NCBI RefSeq assembly: GCF_042453785.1
Contig: NC_091675.1
Location: 6,584,501-6,648,500, forward strand
DNA length: 64,000 nucleotides
Direction: 5' to 3'
Source: Malus domestica
Taxonomy: Eukaryota > Streptophyta > Magnoliopsida > Rosales > Rosaceae
Shown here: positions 12,584 to 33,857 of the stretch, in pieces
How the letters are laid out: each line of letters opens with the position of its first letter
How positions within the stretch are numbered: the first letter of the stretch is position 1
The notes under the pieces: model-generated
Databases searched by the model: none
Told to the model about the DNA's origin: nothing
Seen by the model: the letters and a program-made list of their open reading frames with translations, nothing else
Made by a program: the position numbers and the translations under genes

Positions 12584-12932
12584 AAAAAAACAAAAAAAAC
12601 AAGTATATATTTTGGAGTTTGGTAAAGTAATTTGGTTGTTATGATGTTGTTGCCTATACTTATATCTAGTTGCATCTCATTGCATCACATAAACCTTACC
12701 CTTCACAGTGACTGTTACGGTAGCTCGCATGATAACCACAGTTAGCTTAGGTATTTTTTTTTCCTTTCCTTTTGCCCATTTCGATAGGGTTTTCTTTTGC
12801 TAACCTTATTGCTCGACCCACTTAATAGATTCAAGTTTTTTTTTGTGAGAAGTATATTCAAGTTTACGATGCAATCAATGAAAAATATGTATCAATGTAT
12901 GTACAACAACCAAAAAAGATGCATGCAATCCT

Positions 12933-15056
12933 CTATGAAATTTGCACCCATATCCCAGAACTCAGAACTCCATTGTGCACAACAAAGATCAAATAAAAAC
13001 CCGGAGGAGCAATCTCCGCCGATGGCGGCGCTACAACCTCCACCCGAAAAAATTCCGATTCCACAATTTCCAACTTCTTTATGGCCAATACCAAAAGCCT
13101 TTGGCCCATGGAAAAACCATGGGTTGTGAAAGAGAGTACATGGTCACCTTCAAATCTGATTGGTCCACCTTAGCTTTCTTCAACTTGAACTCCACCACAA
13201 TATATCCTCTGTATTTTACCATGTTGCCCTTGTAATCGGATGTTATCGCAGGTCTGTCCGAGATGAGTAAAGGATCGAAGTATGGTGGGCAAAATTTCTT
13301 GACCCGAAGTTCTGTCGGATACTTTACTCCTGTGAAATTGTAGTAGTAATTTGTGTTGCTCCCAGCCACTAATATTTTGCCATCTAGCAATACCATAAAG
13401 GTTGAACCGTACATTCGTGGTATGGTTGTCGCCTTTAGCTCTGTGAACCGTTGGGTTGTTGGGTTGTCGGGTCTAAAAATTAATGGGGTCGGGTTCGGAT
13501 CTTGTGCGAAGTTCCACCCGGATATTCCCTCTTTGGCCCCATTGACTATAAGGATATCACTTGTGGGAAGGATCAGCAGATCTCCCATAGTCCTTAGTGA
13601 TGGCGTCATCTGCTTCTGCCATGTGGATTTAGGGTCTGTTATATCAATCCTTCCACAATCTTGCAATGCAGTTACGAAAATACCCTTCTTAACTAACTTT
13701 CCCGCTCTAGGATCCGCTCCACCGCATATTATAATTTCGGCCAGGATTGCTTTCGGGTTCGGGTCACTGAGATTTATAGGTAGCAATGTCGCCGTGCCGG
13801 ATGCAGGGTAGTTTCAAGACCCACCATTAAGGATAGGAAGCTCCCGGACAATCTTATTGGTGGTCGGATTGAGTAGAATTGAACGGTTATTAGCAAAGAT
13901 TAGAATGTTGCCATCCGTGGAAAGAAAGACAAACGGGTAGAGATTATTCTGAAACAGGTAAGTGGTCTCTTGGAGAAATGGTAATGGAAATTAAACATCA
14001 TTAAAACCTCCCCCCTTAGGGATATACTCGTAATTGAACATGCGCCGGCCTCCGACCAATATGAAATTGCCATTTGGCAAGATATGTTGCGTAGAAAACC
14101 TATTTAAAATGTAAAATACTTAAAATTAGTAGTCATCAATATTCGTTTTAACTCTGCAATCAACAATTTACAGTTATTTATAAGCATATTGGATATAATT
14201 AATGAAGAATTAACAAATTAATATAACATACCATCTTGAGGCAGAAAGTGACATGGGGTGCTCCTCCCAGTCACAGGTATTGCATCCGGAGAGGTATCTC
14301 ACAGACCTCCCTCCAACAGCCCATCCACCGGTTTGCACAAGAGTGCCATTAGCTGATAATCCACCAGATGAGCACCATGTGTCTGTCAAGATCTGATTTA
14401 AACTAACAAAGACAAAAGTAAGTTACAGCAAAACAAATGGAAATATGCACAAATATTTGAACTGGTTAAATTTTTTTAACCAAAAATTGAATCGAGACAC
14501 TAATACAAACAACAGTTTAGTGCCTTTATATATTTTGTTTAGTGTTCCTCGTTCTTTTTTTTTTTCGATTTAAAGTTCGTAACCGATTCTCAAAATATTA
14601 TGTAGTTATGAAACCCTTAAACTAGTTTATACATACCTTAAGCGGCCTAATAGCTGCAGTCCCAGTGTCAAATTCCACAGCATGAGCCCAGCAATCCACT
14701 TCATAGTATTCTCCAGTTTCATCCCTCTCATCGAAAACCCGACGACAATCTCTAGGAAGCAACGAGATCTCCGATGGACCGAAACCGGCAGCGTCAAACA
14801 TAATGGCCTTGTTACTATTAGGCATGATGGTCATGTGCATGGCCGATACACCTGAATTCTCCGAAACCAATTCCCACCCACCTCTATACTCTCCCTCATC
14901 ATACTTGGCGGCTCCATTTTCTTCACCACCTCCATTGTATATAACTATGACTGGGGTTTCACGAACCCTAGAGTTTCCAAACACATTAGGGTTTGTGAGA
15001 CAGTAGGTGAAGAAGAAGAGGGAGAGAAGAGGGAGGGGTTTGAGAAAGATGGACAT
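12933..15056 (-). pseudogene. GLOX-A: glyoxal/galactose oxidase-like pseudogene
   Basis: Close relative of the intact GLOX-B at 23025-27310. Three exons are in place: 14637-15056, 14232-14392 and 12933-14099. Exon 1 encodes a signal peptide and the start of the glyoxal oxidase N-terminal domain ([15 protein letters not shown]). Exon 3 is broken. A Tyr codon of GLOX-B is TAA here (13991-13993), and an Arg codon is TGA (13814-13816). A 4-base loss near 13125-13135 shifts the frame just before the Tyr-His copper-ligand segment, so the C-terminal DUF1929 part cannot be made. The promoter-proximal half is clean, so a truncated secreted fragment could still be transcribed. Confidence 0.88.
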
Positions 15057-16024
15057 TATTTTACAGGGTGCGCAGAAAAAGGATCTTTTTGCAATGTTTT
15101 CTCTTATTTCTTGGTGCTCCTTTTATGCCTTCTAAAATTTTCCAGCTTTGAATGATTTTTTGGATGGCTTTGCCATCTTCAACTCTCTAAGTACCAGTTT
15201 TTTGGTCAGCTGAAATTCCCTTAAAAAAAAGTGGATACCAAAAAAAGCAAGCATTTGGCAAAAAAAAAAGCAACCCATGCCCATTTTTAAGTTATAAATT
15301 GAAAATGTTGTCCAAATAAAAAAGATTTAAGTTGAACATAGTAGTGTGAACTTGTAATTAAACATGACATTAAAGTAATTGATTGAATGATGAAAGATGA
15401 GTCAAGATAGTGAGACATTTATCATCATCTCTTGTTGAGATTAAATTAAGTAAAAAAAAAATTTCGGCCTAGACAATTCTTCGACAATTAATATAGTTAA
15501 CGTGTAACATGATGGAGTTAGGAAAAAAAACTGTTTGTCGTACTAAAATTTAGTTTTGAGATTACAAAATTTAACTTTAAACACATTTGGGTTGGAATCA
15601 GCTTTAGAGCTCATGGGAAGCACCAAATTAGATTTCAATTGTCACCATGTTTCGAATTATTGGGTCAAATATTTGGATATTGCAGACAAAGAAAACGTGT
15701 GACAATGATTTGGACACATAATTAATAAATTAATAACAATGATAAGGAGATGGTGTGGATTATGACAGAAACAGGCATAACATTGTTTTGTTCCATTATA
15801 CTGATTAGCCATTTATGATAAATTAATATAAGTGTTTAGTTTTTAATTCTGATTTGTTTAAGTTTTGGTGCTACATTTGTCAGATTATGATATCATCTGT
15901 CTGAATGTGTTTTGTATGTGCTGATTTGCCTATTCCTTGGCATATTCAATCAATTCTTCACTTTATATGCATCTTCCGGAGAAAATTAATCATGTATTTG
16001 ATTAAGTAATAGGTTAAATTTTAA
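15057..16024. other. GLOX-A upstream region, duplicated in copy 2
   Basis: This is the 5' flank of GLOX-A on the minus strand. It is almost collinear with 27311-28306 upstream of GLOX-B, with small differences only. It is AT-rich and has no open frame of note. Confidence 0.6.
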
Positions 16025-18113: not shown

Positions 18114-19964
18114 TCAATGAGTCTGCTGATGAAGTGATAACCGTCTGATAAATTCCACAACTGCCATAACTGAATTTTTCGAAGCGAGAGATATGAAGTT
18201 GGCAGCCTCGTTGGGTTCGGAGGTGCCGGATAAAGAAGACGAGAGAGCCTTGATGACAATGAAAGGCACCCTTTGCTGAAGACAAACTAGGGCAACAGAA
18301 GCACTTTCCATGTCCAGAGGGCTAATGTTGAACTTATCAAATAAGAAGCTACGATAAGCTGCATTGGATAGAAAAATGCCTGCACTTGTTCCCCTTTCGA
18401 CTCTATACACTTTTGGTGTATGAGGCAAACATGTCGTTGAGTTTAGGCAACGTTCAAGTTCCAAGTCCTACGTAAACAAGAAGAATGCATGAGTTATAAG
18501 TTAATGATCATGTTTTAAATGTACCATTACATCTTTAATTACATATAAATATTGTTTTAGGGTTTAGGGTTTATATTTGAAAGGTAATTAGATCGAGACT
18601 TAAAGCGGCGTAGTTTATGAGAGCACAAGTATCATAACATAAATCCGGAGGGAAATACTTGGCTCCTTCTCTTGAAAGTGGTCAATCATGCTTACCTGTC
18701 AATCACAGATTCACAGTTTGACACGTGTCAAACTGTGACTGCAAGAAAACAGAATGACTGATTTCAAGGGCGGAGCCAATCGGTGTCCAAATTTGGACTC
18801 TCGATTAGGTAACTTTTACCTCCAATTTTTGGGAGATTTCATAGTAGAGGGGATCAACAGCAACCCAAAAGGCATGTTGTCTTTCCTCCGGAGTTCCATC
18901 TATGGGGAAGACTTCCTCTGGTTGAAACCAAATGTTGTTCAAGAGGTTGTCATATGAGCTTCCATCTGTCACATTTGTTGTGTAATTTGCAACATTTAAG
19001 TATCCAATTTCTCTGGTGTAGTCTCCATCTTTTTCAAGGGGTAGCTCATCTTCAGGCCCATTTCCATATCTCTACACCATGCAATTTGTAAAAATGAAAA
19101 ATAGACAACCACATAATATAGATATGTGTATGTGAACACCGTGCGCCTCGTTGCAATCTTAAATTGCAAATCATAAACTAACACATCTACTTAACCGTCT
19201 TGCAAAAACAAACAAAAAGAAATGTTTTGCTTGTACTCCAGACTGATTTTTCTGCAAGGAGCCAAATATGGAGCTAGCTAAGTTAGGTTTGGGGGGGGGG
19301 GGGGGGGGATTAGCTAGTACCAACCTGCCAGCTCCAAAGAGCAGAATGAGACCAATACTGAGGAATGACCACATCTGCAAGACTGAGGGATGGGTTTGCA
19401 TGCCCTGCTATGCCATAGTGCACCACTCCTTCTATATCAAACTGGCTCAGTAATAGCTGAGTAGTTATTGCTGCATTAATCTACAACAATCGAACACCAA
19501 AAAAGAAATATTATAACAGAAATGGAAAAAAAGAGAGGAAATCAAATGAAAATTAAGAAAATTGAAGTAAAGCAGATATACTACCATTGACAGTCCTGTC
19601 ATGACCAATATGACTGGCTTATTAGCAATTGTTCCGAATCGAAATCTCCTCCCTTAAAACCCGAAAAATGAGAAGAAATTTAAGGTAATTTAGCCAGGGA
19701 AGAAGTTTAATTTGTGTTAATTTGCAATGGGATACATTTCTTACCAGAGAAATCTATGAACAGGTTACTTGAAGTGAAGTTTGGAGATTGCAGAAGAGGA
19801 TCCATTTCATAAGAATTTGGAATGACAAGTCCTAAATAAGGGCCACTCATGTTGGCCTCCTCAATCAACATTTGTGTCTCAGTTGACAATGCAACATTTA
19901 ACTGCAGTGGACTAAGCATCAAGAGAGTATAGAGAAGTATGGAAGCTACTGATAAAGTTCTCAT
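18114..19964 (-). CDS. Nucleosidase A (bark storage protein-like, PNP/UDP family)
   Basis: A secreted member of the phosphorylase/nucleosidase superfamily related to poplar bark storage protein and to MTA/SAH nucleosidases. In trees these serve as wound- or season-induced storage proteins, and enzymatic activity of individual members is often unknown. Five exons join in phase: 19745-19964, 19585-19652, 19325-19480, 18820-19071 and 18114-18467, giving about 349 residues. An N-terminal signal peptide (LLYTLLMLSPLQLNVALS) is followed by RFGTIANKPVILVMTGLSM, GVVHYGIAGHANPSL (the nucleoside-binding glycine segment), ADVVIPQYW, and late DMESASVALVCLQQRVPFIV, where the MES motif matches the family's ribose-binding Met-Glu. 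No stop or frameshift was found. Intron 3 contains a run of about 18 G near 19291-19308. Confidence 0.9.
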
Positions 19965-20531
19965 TGTTCCTGCAGAGAGAGAGAGAGCAGAAGAATATAG
20001 AAACCAGTAGTGAAACTGGAAGCATCAGAAACTTGTGTGCAAACTGTCATACTAATCATGTCATCGGGCTGACTTGGTGAAGAAACTTTTCTTTATGTGA
20101 TTTTAACGATTTATTTTTGGATACATGTCAGAGTGTGATTTGCAAATGAATGAGGACTTAAAAGAAGATTTGGTATACACTAGTGATATTAAAGAATGAA
20201 GAATCGAACACAAAAATATTAGAGTTGAAAGAATCGAACACAGAACTTCAAGTTCCCATATACAAAGTGGACAGCAGGATAGGGGAGATTCAAGAGTTAA
20301 CAGAACCAAGCGCAAAGGAAAATGGAAGAAACTTTAAGACTGTACCGAGAGCAAATACTTACAAATAATCTTGAAGCTAGAAAACCAGATAGCAGAAACA
20401 AACTCCAAGCTGAGGGCAGGCAGTCTCCTCCTCACTCAGTCACAGATCTCAGAAATCGATAGGGTGGGGGTTTGAAATATAATATTTAAATATTGTGGTG
20501 TGTTGGGATAAAGAGAGTGAATTATTAAATA
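19965..20531. other. Upstream region of nucleosidase A
   Basis: 5' flank of the minus-strand gene, duplicated at 30046-30686. It carries a GA run at 19976-19987 just upstream of the ATG. A short open frame on the plus strand at 20183-20368 (EESNTKILELKESNTELQ) is conserved in the copy but its reading frame breaks there, so it is not supported as a gene. Confidence 0.45.
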
Positions 20532-21631: not shown

Positions 21632-22480
21632 TATTAAATATTTATAGGTTAATTTAATTTAATAATTACATCCAACTCATTTAAAAAAGAAAGGGATTTT
21701 ATTTTCTTCTATATCCCATGTGTAATGTGTGTTGTTTTTATAATTTGGGCCAACTAAACAATTTTTTTTTTTGACTAAATCAAGGGTATCCCAAAGGCTT
21801 CCTAGGCCCAAGGACTAATCCCTCCGGCGCATGTGAAATGCTCCGACCGTGCATTGCAGCACGGTGCCTTTCCATTTTGAGCCAACTAAACATTTTACAC
21901 CATTCAAGTTTGTAGTGATTTTTAAAATGAATTGTCAAGTTCTAATTTTGTGACATTGCACATTTGAGATTTTAAAATGGTATCAGTTTGCACATTTGAG
22001 ATTTTAAAATGGTATCAGTTTACACATTTTGTCTCTTGAACATCTAATCATTCATTAAATTGATTTGAGTTTTTTTGTCAATTTAGTGCAAATGTGACTT
22101 ATATATTAGTCCATTAGGTTCTCAACCTCACTCCGTCATCAATTTAATGAATGATCATACATTCAATCAGACTGAAAGCACAAATTGATAGAAATTCAAG
22201 ATTTTAGAGTGCAATATAAAAACTTGAAACTTTGTGGTCCATTTTAAACAAGTACCCACATATAAGGGGTATAGAGTAATTAACGCTTATAAATTCATAG
22301 CATAGAAAACATGAATTATAGCAATTAACAAACTGCTACCATATGATTATTGAGAATTGTTATTGGCTCTCAAAACATTTAATTTTACACTCCAAATCAA
22401 GGGATTCAATTCACGAAAGCCCCTCAGTTTTATTCAAATTCCAAAAGTGGCATACCAAAAAAAGTTCTTAGAGTGAGTGA
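21632..22480. other. 3' flank of the truncated nucleosidase, matches 30690-31381
   Basis: AT-rich spacer collinear with the sequence downstream of nucleosidase C. It contains a short direct repeat of 'gcacatttgagattttaaaatggtatcag' type near 21956-22022. No gene. Confidence 0.5.
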
Positions 22481-22699
22481 TCACTTTGAAGCTGATAACT
22501 GCTTGACAAATTCCAAAACAGCAGTGACTGAGTTTTTGGAAGCGAGAGTTAAGAACGTGTCGACCTCATTCGAATCGGCGCCGCCGTCGCCAGCTAAGTC
22601 GGAGACAGCCCTGATGACAATGAAAGGCACCCTTTGTTGAAGACATATCAAGGCAACATAAGCACTTTCCATTTCCGCAGGGCTGACGTTGAATTTGTT
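22481..22699 (-). pseudogene. Truncated nucleosidase exon 5 at the duplication junction
   Basis: Encodes only the last part of the nucleosidase C type exon 5: ESAYVALICLQQRVPFIV, LAGDGGADSNEVDTF, and a QLSASK ending. Homology to 31400-31630 stops at about 22699 in mid-exon, where sequence switches to the 3' flank of a GLOX gene. It is the severed tail left by the tandem duplication, with no upstream exons of its own. Confidence 0.9.
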
Positions 22700-23024
22700 A
22701 TATATTTTGGAGTTTGGTAAAGTAATTTGGTTGTGATGATGTTGTTGCCTATACTTATATCTAGTTGCATTTCATCGCATAAACCTTACCCTTTAGAGTG
22801 ATCGTTACGGCGACTCGCATGATAGCCATAGTTAACTTAGGTGTTTTTTTTTCTTTCCTTTTGCCCCTTTCGATAGGGTTTTCTTTTGCTGACCTTATTG
22901 CTCGACCCACTGAATACATTCAATTTTTTTTTTTTGTGAAAAGTATATTCAAGTTTACGATGCAATCAATGAAAAATAGGTATCAATGTATGTACAACAA
23001 CCAAAAAAAGATGCATGCAATCCT

Positions 23025-26000
23025 CTATGCAATTTGCACCCATATCCCAGAACTCGGAACTTCATTGTGCACAACAAAGATCAAATAAAAACCCGGAGGA
23101 GCAATCTCTGCCGATGGCGGCGCCACAACCTCCACCCGAAAAAATTCTGATTCCACATTTTCCAACTTCTTTATGGCCAATATCAAAAGTCTTTGGCCCA
23201 TGGAAAAACCATGGGTTGTGAAAGGTGGCGAGTACATGGTCACTTTCAAATCTGATTGGTCCACCTCAGCTTTCTTCAACTTGAACTCCACCACAATATA
23301 TCCTCTGTATTTTACCATTTTACCCTTGTAATCGGATGTTATCATAGGTCTGTCCAAGATGAGTAAAGGGTCGAAGTATGGTGGGTAAAATTTCTCAACC
23401 CGAAGTTCTGTCGGATACTTTACTCCTGTGAAATTGTAGTAGTAATTTGTGTTGCTCCCAGCCACTAATATTTTGCCATCTGGCAATACCATAGAGGTTG
23501 AACCGTACATTCGTGGTATGGTTGTCGCCTTTAGCTCTGTGAACCGTTGGGTTGTTGGGTTGTCGGGTCTATAAAGTAATGGGGTCAGGTTCGGATCCTG
23601 TGCGAAGTTCCACCCGGCTATTCCCTCTTTGGCCCCATTGACTATAAGGATATCACCTGTGGGAAGGATCAACAGATCTCCCATAGTCCTTGGAGTTGGC
23701 ATCATCTCCTTCTGCCATGTGGATTTTGGGTCCGTTATATCAATCCTTCCACAATCTTGCAATGCAGTTACGAAAATACCTTTCTCAACTAACTTTCCCG
23801 CTCTAGGATCCGCTCCACCACATATTATAATTTCAGCTAGGATTGCTTTCGGGTTCGGGTCACTGAGATTTATGGGTAGTAATGCCGCCATGCCAGATGC
23901 AGGGTAGTTTCGAGACCCACCATCAAGGACAGGAAGCTCCCGGACAATCTTGTTGGTGGTCGGATTGAGTAGAATTGAACGGTTATTAGCGAAGATTAGA
24001 ATGTTGCCATCCGTGGAAAGGAAGACAAACGGGTAGAGATTATTCTCAAACGGGTCAGTGGTCTCTTGGAGAAATGGTAATGGAAAGTAAACATCATTAG
24101 AACCTCCCCCCTTAGGGATATACTCGTAATTGAACATGCGTCGGCCTCCGACCAATATGAAATTGCCATTTGGCAAGATATGTTGGGTAGAGAACCTATT
24201 TAAAATGTAAAATAATTAGTAGTCATCAATGTTCGTTTTAACTCTGCAATCAACAATTTACAGTTATTTATAAACACATCGGATATAATTAACAAGGGTA
24301 AATCTCAGTTAACTACCCTCAAGTTTCTTGGTTTTTAACATTTAGTACATGAAGTTTTTTTCGTCCCAGAGTCATACATAAAGTGTTAATTTTGTGACAG
24401 TCTCATACATTCGTTAGTTTGGTGGTTAAATCAGCAATTAACTGATGATGTGACGCTCACGTGGATAATGATTGGACGGTGTCAATATGGGTTCATGTGA
24501 ATATTAAAAAAAAAAAATTAATTTTAATTTTAAAAAAAAAAAAAAAATTCTGGGCAACCACCCATTCCCCCTCCTTCCTTCTCCCTGCCTTCTCTTCCCT
24601 GCACCTATCCTCCCCGCACGCCCACCCATTCCCCTCATTCTCACTCCATTCTCTCCTCTGCACTCACCAATTTATCACGATTGCTTCTGCGATTGGGAAT
24701 TAGGGTTTTTGGGGTGCGTTTCAGATTCAGATTTTGTAAAATCAAATTGGGTTTTGATTGTTGGGGTTTAATTTGTGGTTGCAGATGGCCCGTACCAAGC
24801 AAACTGCTCGGAAGTCCACCGGACGCAAGGCTCCAAGGAAGCAACTTGCTACCAATGTTCGCAGATACCTTCTTCAAACCCTAATATTTACTCCCTTTAA
24901 TCTGCTTTGTTTTCTTTCAATGTGTTGATTCTATTTTGGGATTTTCTCAGGCTGCTAGGAAATCAGCCCCTACCACCGGAGGCTTGAAGAAGCCCCACAG
25001 ATACCGCCCTGGAACTGTTGCTCTTCGTTATGTATTCGAACCCCCATTTAGTTACCCAATTAATCTTAAAATTTGTAATTTTGATTGTGGGTAATTACGG
25101 AAATCAATTAAGGATTGGTAATTAATCATTCTTGTTTTGTGATTTAACGTTGCTGGATTGTGATTGTAATGTGTTTGTGAATATGCCGCAATGAAATCCG
25201 CAAGTACCAGAAGAGCTCAGAGCTACTGATCAGGAAGCTCCCGTTCCAGAGGCAGATGGGTGGGTGTGCGGGGAGGGTGAGTGTGCAGAGGAGAGAAGGG
25301 AGGGAGAAGGACGGGAATGGGTGGGTGTGCGAGGAGGATGGGTGCAGGGAAGGGAAGGGAAGGGAAGGGAAGGGGAATGGGGGTCATGGATCTACCGTCT
25401 CCAATTACGTGTCTTTTTTATGTCTCCTTTATGTTTTTTTGACATGTTTCCTCTAAGTTAACCAATACTTAAAGACTGTTAAATTTTATTATTTTGTGTT
25501 GAAAAAATAAATTTAGACCAGCTATATTATCTCTTCCCCCATCTTCTTAACGACGACCAAGGTACCCACCCTTCCGCCATCTTCTCATTGACGCCGGCGT
25601 CCCTCCATCTCCTCCTCTTCCTTCGTCTCCCTTTGCTCCTCCATCCTCCTCTATTTTAGCCCAAACAATTGCTCTCTCCAACTAAATCAATGACACCGAC
25701 TCCAATTCGAAGGCCTACAAACTTCCGTCCATCTGTGCGGTGGTGCAGATTATGTAAAGCATGGTGGTAAGATCCTTGCAACTAGTATCGTTGCATCTGG
25801 TGGCTATGCAGATGATTTCGATATCAAATTCCTTGATTATACAGGCCAAGTAGGAAATGTGATGATTACTGATTTGGAACCTGAAGATTAAAAGCTTGAA
25901 CTGGGAAACCTTGCTTTGAAGAATAAGTCTGGATGAAAAGAATGGATAAAAGATTGGAAGAAATCATGAGCTACACGGAAAAAAAGTGAAGAATTCTGGA

Positions 26001-27310
26001 TTTACTAACTGAACAGTTAGTCTGATTATTTTGGTTTTTATTTATTTTTTACTTCTAAATATTAGATAAAAAGTTAACAGAGTTATATCTATGTTATGTT
26101 AAATGATATGTGTCAAAGTATTAGGAAAGAGACACACAAAAGGGGACAGCAGATCTGAAGCGGGGAATGGGTGGGTGCCCAGATTTTTTAAATTTTTTTT
26201 TTTTAAGTTTTTAATTTTTAATTTTTTTAAATTTTTTAATATTCACGTGGTCTCATATTGACACGTGACGTCCAATCATTGTCCACGTGAGCGACACATC
26301 ATCAGTTAACGGTTGATTTAACAGTCAAACTAACGGATGTATGAGACTGTCCCAAAATTAACACTTTAGGTACAATTTTGGGACGAAAAAAACTTCATGT
26401 ACCAAATGTTGAAAACCACAAAACTTGAGGGAAGTGAACTAAGATTTACCCAATTAACAAATAACTAACAAATTAATATAACATACCATCTTGAGGCAGA
26501 AAGTGACATGGGGTGCTCCTCCCAGTCACAGGTATTGCATCCGGAGAGGTATCTCACAGACCTCCCTCCAACAGCCCATCCACCGGTTTGCACAAGAGTG
26601 CCATTAGCTGATAATCCACCAGATGAGCACCATGTGTCTGTCAAGATCTGATTTAAACTAACAAAGACAAAAGTAAGTTACAGCAAAACAAATGGAAATA
26701 TGCACAAATATTTGAACTGGTTAAATTTTTTTAACCAAAAATTGAATCGAGACACTAATACAAGCAACAGTTTAGTGCCTTTATATATTTTGTTTAGTGT
26801 TCCTCTTTCTTTTTTTTTTCGATTTAAAGTTCGTAACCGATTCTCAAAATATTATGTAGTTATGAAACCCTTAAACTAGTTTATACATACCTTAAGCGGC
26901 CTAATAGCTGCAGTCTCAGTGTCAAATTCCACCGCATGAGCCCAGCAATCCTCTTCATAGTATTCTCCAGTTTCATCCCTCTCATCGAAAACCCGACGAC
27001 AGTCTCCAGGAGGCAACGAGATCTCCGATGGACCGAAACCGGCAGCGTCAAACATAATGGCCTTGTTACTATTAGGCATGATGGTCATGTGCATGGCCGA
27101 TACACCTGAATTCTCCGAAACCAATTCCCACCCACCTCTATACTCTCCCCCATCATACTTGGCGGCTCCATTTTTTTCACCACTTCCATTGTATATAACT
27201 ATGACTGGGGTTTCACGAACCCTAGAGTTTCCAAACACATTAGGGTTTATGAGACAGTAGGTGAGGAAGAAGAGGGAGAGAAGAGGGAGGGGTTTGAGAA
27301 AGATGGACAT
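23025..27310 (-). CDS. GLOX-B: glyoxal/galactose oxidase-like (aldehyde oxidase GLOX)
   Basis: Secreted copper-radical oxidase family; members oxidise aldehydes or galactose residues and release hydrogen peroxide in the cell wall. Exons: 26891-27310, 26487-26647 and 23025-24195, joined in phase, about 583 residues. The N-terminus has a signal peptide ([20 protein letters not shown]). Then come [56 protein letters not shown] followed by [43 protein letters not shown] (the family's late His ligand region) and [12 protein letters not shown] at the end. The N-terminal glyoxal oxidase and C-terminal DUF1929 domains are both complete. The ATG at 27310 matches the start used in GLOX-A; the frame extends further upstream only through a TTG. 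Intron 2 is swollen from about 130 to about 2,290 bases by a Mutator-like element, which may affect splicing. Confidence 0.87.
24785..25257 (+). pseudogene. Captured histone H3.3 fragment
   Basis: The frame starts at ATG 24785 with the H3 tail [20 protein letters not shown], followed by LAT. After an intron-like gap to about 24950 comes [20 protein letters not shown], and after a second gap to about 25195 [20 protein letters not shown]; it then stops matching. Thr at tail position 31 and Tyr at 41 are the plant H3.3 marks. Differences from the near-invariant sequence include Gly13 to Arg, and the whole second half of the histone fold is missing, so no histone can form. Introns sit where plant H3.3 genes have them, supporting genomic capture. 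Confidence 0.85.
25739..25935 (+). pseudogene. Captured SRA-YDG fragment of a SUVH-type histone methyltransferase
   Basis: Readable residues include [37 protein letters not shown] and, beyond an internal [14 protein letters not shown]. This order ([13 protein letters not shown], YTGxGGN, GNLAL) matches the methyl-cytosine-reading SRA-YDG domain of SUVH H3K9 methyltransferases. The internal stop, a missing loop and the absence of SET sequence make it dead. It lies about 480 bases after the H3 piece in the same element and on the same strand. Confidence 0.65.
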
Positions 27311-28350
27311 TATTTTACAGGGTGCGCAGAAAAAGGATCTTTGCAATGTTTTCTCTTATTTCTTGGTGCTCCTTTTATGCCTTCTAAAATTCTCCAGCTT
27401 TGAATGACTTTTTGGATGGTTGTGCCATCTCCAATTCACCTAATTAAGTACCAGTTTTTTGGTACAGCTGAAATTCCCTTAAAAAAAAAGTAAGTACCAA
27501 AAAAGGGGCATTTATAACTTGAAATGCCCGTTTTTAAGTTATAAATTGAAAATATTGTCCAAATAAAAAAGATTTAAGCTAAACATAGTAGCGTAAATTT
27601 GTAATTAAACATGACATTAAAGTAATTGATTGAATGATGAAAGATGGGATGGGTCAAGATGGTGAGACATTTATCATCACCTCTTGTCAAGGTCAAATTA
27701 AGTAAAAAAAAAAAAAAAAATTCAGCCTGACAATTCTTGTACAGTTAATATAGTTAACGTGTAACATGATGGAGTTAGGAAAACAAAATTTTGTCGTACT
27801 AAAATTTAGTTTTAAGATTACAAAATTTAACTTTAAACACATTTGCGTTGGAATCGGCTTAGAGCTCATAGGAAGCACCAAATTAGATTTCAGTTGTCAC
27901 CATGTTTCGAATTATTGGGTCAGACATTTGGATATTGCAGACAAAAGAAAAACGTGTGACAATGATTTGGACCCATAATTACTAAATTAATAACAATGAA
28001 TTAATAAATTAATAACAATGATAAGGAGATGGTGTGGATTATGACAGAAACAGGCATAACATTGTTTTGTTCCGTTAAACTGATTAGCCATTTATTATGA
28101 TAAACTAATATAAGTGTTTAGTTTTTAATTTTGATTTGTTTAAGTTTTGGTGCTACATTTGTCAGATCATGATATCATCTGTCTGAATGTGTTTTGTATG
28201 CGCTGATTTGCCTATTCCTTGGCATATTCAATCAATTCTTCAAATTATATGCATCTTCCGGAGAAAATTAATCATGTATTTGATTAAGGAATAGGTTAAA
28301 TTTTAATTTGTATTATGTTTTAGGATCCGACCAGGATCCTTTTTTAATGT
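27311..28350. other. GLOX-B upstream region
   Basis: 5' flank of GLOX-B, collinear with 15057-16024 and then 17019-17060 of copy 1. It contains the empty target site of the 16025-17018 element at 28298-28306. It has small AT-rich differences and no gene. Confidence 0.6.
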
Positions 28351-29066: not shown

Positions 29067-29405
29067 AACAAGTTGATTGGCCTGTGTGACTTTACTCAAC
29101 CACATAATTTCATTAAAGTCAAATCTAACGGTTAAGAGAGTGTCCTTTTTTTTTTTTTGAAAAATGGAGATCCATTCCCTTAAAGGGCCTATATAGATAT
29201 GTGTGTGTGAACACCGCGACTCGTTACAATTAAAAAGTCATTCTTCTAAACTGCAAATCATAAACTAACACATCTAGTGATGCGTCTTGCAAAAACAAAC
29301 AAAAAGAAATGTTTTGCTAGTACTCCAGACTGACTTTTCTGTTAGGAGCCAAATATGGAGCTAGCTAAGTTAGGTTTGTGGGGGAAGGGATTAGCTGGCA
29401 CCAAC

Positions 29406-30045
29406 CTGCCAGCTCCAAAGAGCAGAATGGGACCAATACTGAGGAATGACCACATGTGCAAGATTGAGGGATGGGTTTGCATGCCCTGCTATGCCATAGT
29501 GCACCACTCCTTCTATATCAAACGGGCTCAGTAATAGCTGAGTAGTTATTGCTGCATTAATCTACAACAATCGAACACCAAAAAAGAAATATTATAACAG
29601 AAATGAAAAAAAAAAGAGGAAATCGAAGGGAAATTAAGAAAATTGTAGTAAAGCAGATATACTACCATTGACAGTCCTGTCATGACCAATATGACTGGCT
29701 TATTAGCAATTGTTCCGAATCGCAATCTCCTCCCTTAAAACCAGAAAAATGAGAAGAAATTTAAGGTGATTTAGCCAGGGAAGAAGTTTAACTTGTGTTA
29801 ATTTGCAATGGGATACATTTCTAACCAGAGAAATCTATGAACAGGTTACTTGAAGTGAAGTTTGGAGATTGCAGAAGATGGTCCATTTCATAATAATTTG
29901 GAATGGCAAGACCTAAATAAGGGCCACTCATATTGGCCTCCTCAATCAACATTTGTGTCTCAGTTGACAATGCAACATTTAACTGCAGTGGACTAAGCAT
30001 CAAGAGAGCATAGAGAAGTATGGAAGCTACTGATAAAGTTCTCAT
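29406..30045 (-). pseudogene. Nucleosidase B, truncated to exons 1-3
   Basis: Exons 29826-30045, 29666-29733 and 29406-29561 are near-identical to nucleosidase A exons 1-3, with signal peptide and GVVHYGIAGHANPSL intact and in frame. Exons 4 and 5 are missing: homology ends in intron 3 near 29190, and the following 800 bases are repeats and SINE-like sequence. Without the C-terminal half the protein lacks the Met-Glu-Ser substrate site, so it is a pseudogene, although the promoter and first exons are kept. Confidence 0.87.
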
Positions 30046-31381
30046 TGTTCCTGCAGAGAGAGAGAGAGCAGAAGAATATAGAAACCGGTAGTGAAACTGG
30101 AAGCATCAGAAACTTGTGTGCAAACTGTCATACTAATCATGTCATCGGGCTGACTTGGTGAAGAAACTTTTCTTTCTGTGATTTTAATGATTTATTTTTG
30201 GATACATGTCAGAGTGTGATTTGCAAATGAATGAGGACTTAAAAGAAGATTTGGTATACACTAGTGATATTAAAGAATGAAGAATCGAACACAAAAATAT
30301 TAGAGTTGAAAGAATCGAACACAGAACTTCAGAGTTTCCATATACAAAGTGGACAGCAGGATAGGGGAGATTCAAGAGTTACAGAACCAAGCGCAAAGGA
30401 AAATGGAAGAAACTTTAAGACTGTACCGAGAGCAAATACTTACAAATAATCTTGAAGCTAGAAAACCAGATGGCAGAAACAAACTCCAAGCTGAGGGCAG
30501 GCTGTCTCCTCCTCACTCAGGAGAAATTTTTTATTGTGACCAACAATCAATAGGTCTCCTCAGGAGAAAACTCTCACTCGGTCACAATCTCACAGATCTC
30601 AGAAATCGATAGGTTGGGGAGTTGAAATATAATATTTAAATATTGTGGCGAACAAGTGGACTAATATTGGGATAAAGAGAGTGAATTATTAAATATTTAT
30701 AGGTTAATCTAATTTAATATTTACATCCAACTCATTTAAAAAAGAAAGGGTTCTATTTTCTTCTATTTCCCATGTGTAATGTGTGTTGTTTTTATAATTT
30801 GGGCCAACTAAACATTTTACACCTTTCAAGTTTGTAGTGATTTTTAAAATGGATTATGAAGTTCTAGCTTTGTTAAATTGCACATTTGAAGTTACAAAAT
30901 TGTATCAGTTTATACATTTTGTCTCTTGAACATCTAATCATTCATTAAATTGATTTGAGTCTTTTTTTTTTTGTCAATTTAGTGCAAATGTGACTTATAT
31001 GTTAGTCCATCAGGTTCTCAACCTCACTCCGTCATCAATTTAATGAATTATCGTACAATTAATCAAACCCAATGCACAAATTGATAGAAATTCAAGATTT
31101 TAGAGTGCAATATAAAAACTTAAAACTTTGTGGTCCATTTTAAAAAAGTACCCACATATAAAGGGTATAGAGTAATTAACCCTTATAAATTCATAGCATA
31201 GAGGCAATAAACAGGAATTATAGCAATTAGCAACCTGCCTCCATATGAATATTGAGAATTGTTATTGGCTCTCAAAACATTTAATTTTACACTCCAAACC
31301 AAGGGATTCAGTTCACGAAAGCCCCTCAGTTTTATTCAAATTCCAAAAGTGGCATACAAAAAAAGTTCTTAGAGTGAGTGA
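30046..31381. other. Spacer upstream of nucleosidase B, downstream of nucleosidase C
   Basis: Collinear with 19965-20531 plus 21632-22480. It holds the uninterrupted target site (30687-30695) of the 20532-21631 element. A stretch at about 30525-30590 is absent from copy 1. No gene. Confidence 0.5.
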
Positions 31382-33857
31382 TCACTTTGAAGCTGATAAC
31401 TGCTTGACAAATTCCTTTGAAGCTGATAACTGCTTGACAAATTCCAAAACAGCAGTGACTGAGTTTTTGGAAGCGAGAGTTAAGAATGCGTCGGCCTCAT
31501 TCGAATCGGCGCCGCCGCCGCCGGCCAAGTCGGAGATAGCCCTGATGACAATGAAGGGCACCCTTTGCTGAAGACATATCAAGGCAACAGAAGCACTTTC
31601 CATTTCCACAGGGCTGACGTTGAATTTGTTGTATATGAAGCCTCTGTAAGCAGCATTGTCTAGATAAATGCTTGCACTTGTTCCCCTATCAACTCTTGCC
31701 ACTTTTGGTGTATGGGACAAACATGTCGTCGAGTTCAGGCAGCCTTCCAATTTCAGGTCCTAGACACAATGTGCAATTTTCCAATTTTAATTGAACGCTA
31801 AAGATAATTATATGCATCGCATTTAATTTTAGACCGCATTGGTTAACAACATGATGGTGTCATTAAATATCTAGGAGACTAGGAATATTGACAAAAATGA
31901 TCACAAATCAATTTTCAATTGTTGAACCAATCAAAATCAAATATCAAAGAAATACCAATTTGAATAATGATGACATACTGATCATCGATATGTCATTATT
32001 GTGACGTGCTAATGTTTGTTGTAATTGAGATATTTTTTGACTTTTTAGGATGTGGAAATAAGCGTGCCTTAAACTATACTCATTTTAAGGCATGAAAAAA
32101 AAAACGTCGTGAAAGGAAAGATGTCTTTTACACCACCGCGAACTTTTTTTTTTGGTTTGCCAAAATTAAATTTCCCAGCATTTAGGCCTCTTCAAGCCGT
32201 GCTATTACCTCCAATTTTTTAGAGATGTTATAGTAAAGGGGATCAACAGGAACCCAAAAGGCATGTTGTCTTTCCTCTGGAGTTCCATCTATCGGAAAGA
32301 CTTCCTCCGGTTGATACCAAATATTGTTTAACAGGTTGTCATATGAGGAGCTGCTTGCATTGACTGTATAATTTGCAAATTTTAAGTAGCCAATTTCTCT
32401 GGTGTAGTCTCCGCTTGCTTCAAGGGGTAGCTCGTTTTCTGGCCCTTGTCCATATCTCTGCACCATGTCACACGCACACACAAGCACACTAATAACCGCA
32501 AATTCATATTTACTAACAAAAAGAGGGAAATAAAGAAGGGATAACTCATAAGCTGAAAAGAAAAATTGACGTTACTCAAGGAGTTAAGTGAGGTCTAATT
32601 AACAACTATTGAATGTCAGGGATTAGTTAAGCGGCATTTAAATTTCGGGAGCTTAAATGAACGATATAAGTAGCTCTAGACAGTGTTTGCTCTAAATCTG
32701 CGAAACCTTGAGTTCAAGCTCATTTACTAATTAGGTTAGTTTCATGTGCTAGATGATATATATTTGAGAAAGTAACCCCTTCCAAGTAATACTTCCATCC
32801 CAAATTGCTTAACTTCAAAGTTTGTAATGAAATTCGTGCATCGAATTCTCTCTATGTACTTGCTTACATGTTTTGAAAACCTAGTTAATTAATAATAAGG
32901 TTGTGTGAATTTCCAGTTAGTTGGTAAAAGCGACTTGTGGCCGTAATTAGGAAGAGGAGGCACCTGCCAGTTCCAAAGAGCACTATGGGCCCAATACTGA
33001 GGAATGACCACGTCGGCAATGTTTATGGATGGGTTTGCATTACCAGCTATGCCATAATGCACCACTCCTTCTATGTCGAAGAGGCTTAACAAAAGCTGAG
33101 TAGTAATTCCTGCATTAATCTGCAAAAACATAAAAATGATAACACATGCAATCAGAAAAGAGGATACAACGAGAAACTTTGAGTGCGGCGATCATAACTT
33201 GACATGATGTTACTAATTTACGTATTATATATAAATAAACGATGTAATATATGTAATAGAGTATAACTAATGTCAATAAACATGCCACAACCTGAGTGAA
33301 TCAATAACACCGTGTTGCGATGTGATTCGCACCCAGGCTGAAATATTACTCGAAGAAAAACTAAAGTGAATTAGAAAGTCAGAAGGTACATGATAATATA
33401 TATGTATGTGTGTATGTACCATTGAGAGTCCTGTCATAACCAATATGACTTTCTTGTTAGCAATGGTTCCGAACCGAAATCTTCTTCCTTTGAAAACCAC
33501 AGAAAGAAAGTATATAAGAAAGTATATATTTCATACTAATTATTTGCTTCATTTTGTTTTTCAAAAGGTCTAAGTTCGAATCCCCGTCTTCTTTTCCAGA
33601 TGAAGAAGTAGAACACGATTTGTATGCGTACCGGAGACATCTATGGTAAGGTTAGTTGAGGTGAAGTTTGGAGATTGAAGAAGAGGGTTCATTTCGAAAG
33701 CGTTTGGAATGACCACGCCTAGATAAGGGCCACTCTGGTTCGCCTCGTCGATCGACTTGTATGTCTCTGCGGACAATGCAGCATCTGCCTGCAGTTGTCT
33801 GTTAAGCATGAAGAAGCTGATCATCATCAGAGAAGCTACTACTGATGAAGCTCCCAT
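31382..33857 (-). CDS. Nucleosidase C (bark storage protein-like, PNP/UDP family)
   Basis: Five exons join in phase: 33632-33857, 33420-33487, 32964-33119, 32209-32457 and 31382-31759, about 358 residues. It has the same architecture as nucleosidase A but is clearly diverged: signal peptide MGASSVVASLMMISFFML, then ANQSGPYLGVVIPNAFEM, RFGTIANKKVILVMTGLS, GVVHYGIAGNANPSIN, RYGQGPENELPLEASG, and VEMESASVALICLQQRVPF. It is the donor of the severed fragment at 22481-22699. The extreme C-terminus has a 30-base direct repeat (about 31383-31442) that repeats EFVKQLSASK twice; copy 1's fragment has it once. The gene appears complete. Likely a secreted or vacuolar storage-type protein; activity is not predictable. 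Confidence 0.9.

Follow-up and report, generated by a model that had tools for sequence, protein, structure and literature searches.

Fragments of two chromatin genes, histone H3.3 and a SUVH-type methyltransferase of lysine 9 on histone H3 (H3K9), lie between one pair of terminal inverted repeats in apple (Malus domestica), at positions 24296-26451 of a 64,000-nucleotide stretch of DNA (RefSeq assembly GCF_042453785.1, contig NC_091675.1, positions 6,584,501 to 6,648,500 of the forward strand), here called the window. This arrangement is almost certainly best explained by two independent non-autonomous Mutator-type elements, of which element B with the SUVH piece sits inside element A with the H3.3 piece, so that the pairing of the two chromatin genes would be accidental because element B landed in element A. 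The original prediction had read the whole as one Pack-MULE, a Mutator-like element (MULE) with captured gene pieces, that holds H3.3 and SUVH together; a Pack-MULE carrying H3.3 is present, but the SUVH piece came with a separate nested transposon. The pairing is most likely the chance product of one insertion within another, and the case an ordinary one.

Anatomy of the composite locus

The composite consists of the following features, listed by window position:

24287..24295, unstranded: outer target-site duplication, left copy AATTAACAA, perfect 9 bp
24296..24668, plus strand: outer MULE left terminal inverted repeat, 373 bp
24668..25253, plus strand: captured H3.3 gene fragment, 586 bp, with 5' leader, both introns and the start of the next exon
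24785-24856, 24951-25027 and 25192-25253: H3.3 exon matches, with intron 1 and intron 2 between them
25254..25381, minus strand: outer MULE right terminal inverted repeat, inner part
25373..25381, unstranded: nested target-site duplication, left copy GGGAATGGG, perfect 9 bp
25382..26162, plus strand: nested transposon of a second MULE-like family, 781 bp
25739..25925, plus strand: SUVH SRA-domain fragment carried by element B, with one in-frame stop
26163..26171, unstranded: nested target-site duplication, right copy GGGAATGGG, perfect 9 bp
26172..26451, minus strand: outer MULE right terminal inverted repeat, outer part
26452..26460, unstranded: outer target-site duplication, right copy AATTAACAA, perfect 9 bp

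Element B is located within the right terminal repeat of element A and not between its two repeats. If element B and one copy of its 9-mer are cut out, the right repeat and the left one are identical at 320 of the 369 positions aligned (87%), and one gapped alignment spans the restored junction (query start at or below 240 and end at or above 320, as read from the alignment table) in 12 of the 14 sibling loci retrieved for comparison from an outer family that is larger, the exceptions being L019 and L020. Equally, in searches of the 651-Mb assembly with its 19 contigs, for several siblings the matches to element positions 1-373 come in both orientations, while the right repeat of the window is seen as separate matches at element positions 956-1087 and 1867-2156. 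As in a known system with duplicated repeats, in the available description of that system, self-comparison can display more than one inverted-repeat segment per side; here, however, the extra segment is a single repeat cut by an insertion and not a duplicated repeat.

The outer inverted repeats start with GGGTAAATCT immediately inside the copies of AATTAACAA, and a chance match of two 9-mers at these fixed places has a probability of about 7e-6 under the base composition of the window. The predicted 9-base target duplication is therewith borne out, and the predicted inverted repeats of about 215 bases are present but longer, with 373 bp on the left and, once element B is removed, about 408 bp on the right, where the repeat is split in two. 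With its 9-bp target duplication (9-10 bp in the class), long inverted repeats and host-gene fragment, element A has the hallmarks of a Pack-MULE. Among the 14 sibling loci, with end shifts of up to 4 bases allowed, the target duplication agrees at nine of nine bases in 8, at eight of nine in 3 and at 6 or 7 in 2, and 1 is unpairable; L015 is scored by its 20-1230 pair (the 20-2190 pair gives 6).

A full-length relative of element B has been found at C15:6836232-6837075 (L011), about 226 kb from the window copy, with the same ends and a Kimura two-parameter (K2P) distance of 0.094. This relative possesses its own 9-bp duplication TCCTATAAT, flanks unrelated to those of the window copy, and no H3.3 sequence. 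C1 holds a further, partial copy and C7 a diverged one. Between the window copy of element B and L011 the ends are related, but they have diverged and measure, as judged by eye, about 20 bp, and in wider relatives with shared ends, L074 and L075, matching ends extend in inverted orientation over about 130-156 bp. A duplication is discernible by eye at four of the eight B-family loci inspected for it, namely the window, L011, L074 (C15:15.80 Mb; GTGGTCATA, with nine extra bases at the left end) and L077, which has a shared CCCTTCCGCCG string. Element B has the 9-bp duplication and the host-gene fragment of a MULE or Pack-MULE.

In L074 (C15:15798500-15805500) and L075 (C5:36908500-36913500), SUVH sequence within codons 745-783 lies near the ends in both arms and corresponds to a different part of the C11 SUVH gene than the window cargo; since it is found near both ends, captured gene sequence seems to have been absorbed into the inverted repeats. 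L074 contains a copia-type gag-like reading frame in addition. Together, L011, L074 and L075 indicate that the B family bears SUVH sequence apart from any H3.3 element.

Captured gene fragments and their likely sources

The interior search located likely parental loci for both pieces, as the original prediction had proposed, with H3.3 on C8 (also C15) and SUVH on C11; neighbouring positions of the two pieces within a normal gene are ruled out by these separate locations. The H3.3 cargo encodes T31 and Y41 and retains both introns, in agreement with the predicted H3.3-type tail, and has BLAST identities of 89% to C8:23272209-23272823 and 86% to C15:46463881-46464498, two complete genes for an identical 136-residue protein. 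At the 29 sites where these genes differ, the cargo equals C8 at 21, C15 at 6 and neither at 2, and the pattern of sequence agreement makes the C8 gene the most likely source. The captured piece has suffered a 30-bp deletion in intron 2, carries TT instead of GT as the second intron donor, and has an altered final base in the first exon match. Compared with the C8 parent, 7 of 70 codons are changed, 3 silently and 4 by missense (G13R, K23N, V35L, T58S), whereas both H3.3 parents encode one and the same protein. Read without splicing from the H3 start, the frame extends over 47 residues. A working H3.3 tail gene is ruled out by the TT donor, the altered exon-end base and the codon changes with their 4 missense replacements.

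The second piece was likewise correctly assigned: the 59-residue translation of the SUVH cargo (with X at its one stop) matches Pfam SAD_SRA at E = 5e-8, and its DNA is 91% identical to a one-exon SUVH gene at C11:37980285-37983506, which spans 1,074 codons from stop to stop, has SRA, Pre-SET and SET domains and finds its best PDB match in SUVH6. The Pfam match, with a parent nearest to SUVH6 among solved structures, rules out a non-SUVH origin of the 25.7-kb piece, and on these similarities this SUVH6-like gene on C11 is the most likely source. Over about 255 bases, the L011 relative is 93% identical to the C11 gene and 88% to a C4 gene. The window piece is two bases shorter than L011, but L011 in turn seems to fall one base short of the frame of the parent; the window piece can therefore be read through 25739-25925 in a single frame, interrupted by one stop, and the wider genome match of the cargo contains three stops. 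A fragmented SUVH6-like sequence with stops at C3:34487368-34499807 may represent a degenerating duplicate of the C11 gene. The gene pairs on C8/C15 and C3/C11 presumably fit the paired chromosomes of apple. As far as can be read from its sequence, the composite gives no sign of encoding a working protein.

Host intron, sibling elements and copy number

The composite resides in an intron of a glyoxal-oxidase-like gene, of which the window holds two tandem copies:

24196..26486, minus strand: intron of the glyoxal-oxidase-like gene holding the composite, with splice sites placed by eye and the gene recognized by the domains of the flanking exons
12606..15448, minus strand: tandem host-gene copy representing the empty site, covered by one 2,862-bp alignment across the junction at 93.7% identity

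Minus the element and one target copy, the host intron measures 126 bp. The tandem copy being an empty site, the outer insertion is younger than the divergence of the tandem copies, and it probably occurred later than the tandem duplication, unless a clean loss of the element from the first copy is assumed. The segmental duplication itself pairs 12604-16024 with 22699-28306, 19116-20439 with 29191-30520, and 21876-22705 with 30798-31636; the duplicated pieces are 86-95% identical and include the two glyoxal-oxidase-like copies, the first of which is the empty site, and the K2P distance of the tandem gene copies is 0.037-0.057.

The same terminal repeat with other cargo, which had been suggested as something to look for, occurs in sibling loci. 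By eye, L016, L023 and L028 on the one hand and L017, L018 and L024 on the other have outer-family repeats around further shared internal sequences, at least two in number, and with several copies of this kind the outer family carries varied cargo. Two further siblings, at C12:2253627-2254937 (L019 628-1938) and C14:8072728-8074041 (L020 529-1842), have the same H3.3 left junction as the window, so that element A with this common capture junction is present at at least three loci. These two are 93.6% identical to each other and possess the target duplications TTAATTTTT and TTTTCTTTT, respectively, a difference that rules out one old insertion kept on duplicated chromosomes. Their H3.3 piece ends within exon 1 and is followed by a 31-bp piece of intron 1 and then by a seeming fragment of another gene, which may be JAZ/TIFY-like and for which Pfam gave no match. 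In these two elements no SUVH match was found. The C12 and C14 pair, and not the window element, are the better candidates for capture from two genes by one element. One derived base is common to all three elements against both parents, one is shared only by the window and C12, and nine by C12 and C14 alone; because shared derived bases are so few, the shared left junction speaks more strongly for a common capture of H3.3. A second composite was not found, as the search with the H3.3 cargo, in which all 36 candidates were scored, and that with the SUVH cargo of L011, with all 12 scored, overlap only at the window locus.

Competing explanations and significance

That one Pack-MULE itself captured the H3.3 and SUVH pieces from two unlinked genes is exceedingly improbable, even though both pieces lie between one outer inverted-repeat pair and one outer target duplication, the C12 and C14 siblings hold H3.3 plus a seeming second gene fragment, and Pack-TYPE elements with pieces of several loci are on record, at least in the part of the source at hand (PMC8903248). 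The SUVH piece resides in an element that has separate ends and a 9-bp duplication of its own and lies inside the right repeat, and an independent SUVH-bearing relative exists at C15:6836232-6837075; a single Pack-MULE with both genes and without a separate element around either is not what the locus displays. Entry of the SUVH stretch into the right repeat by repair or acquisition via the repeated GGGAATGGG motif instead of transposition might be considered, as the motif recurs further inside the repeat and integration of acquired sequence into extended terminal repeats is mentioned, in the accessible text, in PMC3310237; this is very unlikely, however, because the stretch starts and stops at the same points as the relative at C15:6.84 Mb, which has a perfect 9-bp duplication and unrelated flanks.

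Alternatively, the composite could be a working regulatory locus, in which antisense RNA from the intron or hairpin RNA from the repeats would direct small RNAs onto H3.3 or SUVH6-like genes. Both gene pieces are antisense to the host gene, and the H3.3 cargo shares 151 of 566 exact 21-mers with the C8 gene (introns included) and 94 of 566 with the C15 gene, and the SUVH cargo 16 of 167 with the C11 gene; this placement and these exact matches would make small RNAs on the parents possible. Since 151 of 566 and 16 of 167 21-mers are exact, the idea of small interfering RNAs (siRNAs) survives divergence alone, and maize Pack-MULEs figure among the siRNA reservoirs able to silence donor genes in the consulted portion of a review (PMC13317346). 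On the other hand, the inverted repeats exclude the gene pieces, a single composite copy was found, and splice and coding signals have decayed, which leaves a function of this sort with very little probability. Equally slim is the prospect that nesting by chance made one locus whose small RNAs would correspond to H3.3 and to a SUVH6-like H3K9 methyltransferase alike; if true, one locus would touch both the histone and its modifying enzyme.

Several observations fit two nested MULEs less comfortably. No transposase was found for either family, and none was searched for, so that both are labelled MULEs on the strength of their ends, repeats and 9-bp duplications. Four of the eight B-family loci (L013, L070, L075, L076) lack a target duplication that is clear by eye. 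The outer repeat is rich in the motif GGGAATGGGTGGG, present too at 25313-25327, and the GGGAATGGG duplication is for this reason less improbable than a random 9-mer. The empty site equals the target at only seven of nine bases, and the K2P of 0.14 between the outer repeats exceeds that of the tandem gene copies, a misfit with a simple age reading; the repeats either diverged before insertion or mutate faster. Finally, the general searches scored 40 of 2,439, 40 of 60 and 43 of 89 candidates, with very common words skipped.

On the reading of two nested elements, element A would have taken up a piece from the 5' part of an H3.3 gene, with the C8 gene as the most likely source and template switching or gap repair as the presumed route, and one copy of the element would have entered the intron of the glyoxal-oxidase-like gene, probably after the tandem duplication of this gene. 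Element B, with the SRA-domain fragment of a SUVH6-like gene, would have landed in the right terminal repeat of that same copy, before or after the copy entered the intron. A MULE transposase acting in trans presumably mobilised both, and neutral decay may have followed. Proposals for capture by animal Pack-TIRs are, according to the available text, gap filling and replication-fork switching (PMC8277862).

Both elements are most likely inert Pack-MULE-type fossils, nested by chance and with no present function. Like the Pack-MULEs of plants, reportedly described by Jiang and co-workers in 2004, element A is non-autonomous and has long inverted repeats, a 9-bp duplication, a genomic fragment with introns and siblings with other cargo; unlike in these, a second element with a gene fragment interrupts its right repeat, and it is known here from sequence alone. 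Transposons inside a MULE are frequent: in the accessible text, nested insertions were counted in 191 (36%) of 530 candidate coding-MULEs of maize and 195 (41%) of 476 of rice (PMC3903597), where the hosts are coding MULEs, whereas here host and guest are small and both bear host-gene fragments. Capture and movement of histone H3 sequence by a DNA transposon is, in the available parts of two sources, known from hAT transposons in fungi (PMC6710886; PMC3538342), which amplified to tens or hundreds of copies, in contrast to the Mutator-type ends and the three H3.3 loci found here. Among the titles returned by literature searches, none referred to a plant element or Pack-MULE with H3.3 and SUVH. 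The locus adds a further case to a class already known, Pack-MULE-type fossils.

Two chromatin genes within one inverted-repeat pair need not mean capture by one element, and the check that settles joint capture versus nesting is the combination of an inner target duplication and an uninterrupted sibling repeat. With both target duplications, the empty site, the siblings and the likely parents in one genome, the locus provides a clean teaching case.

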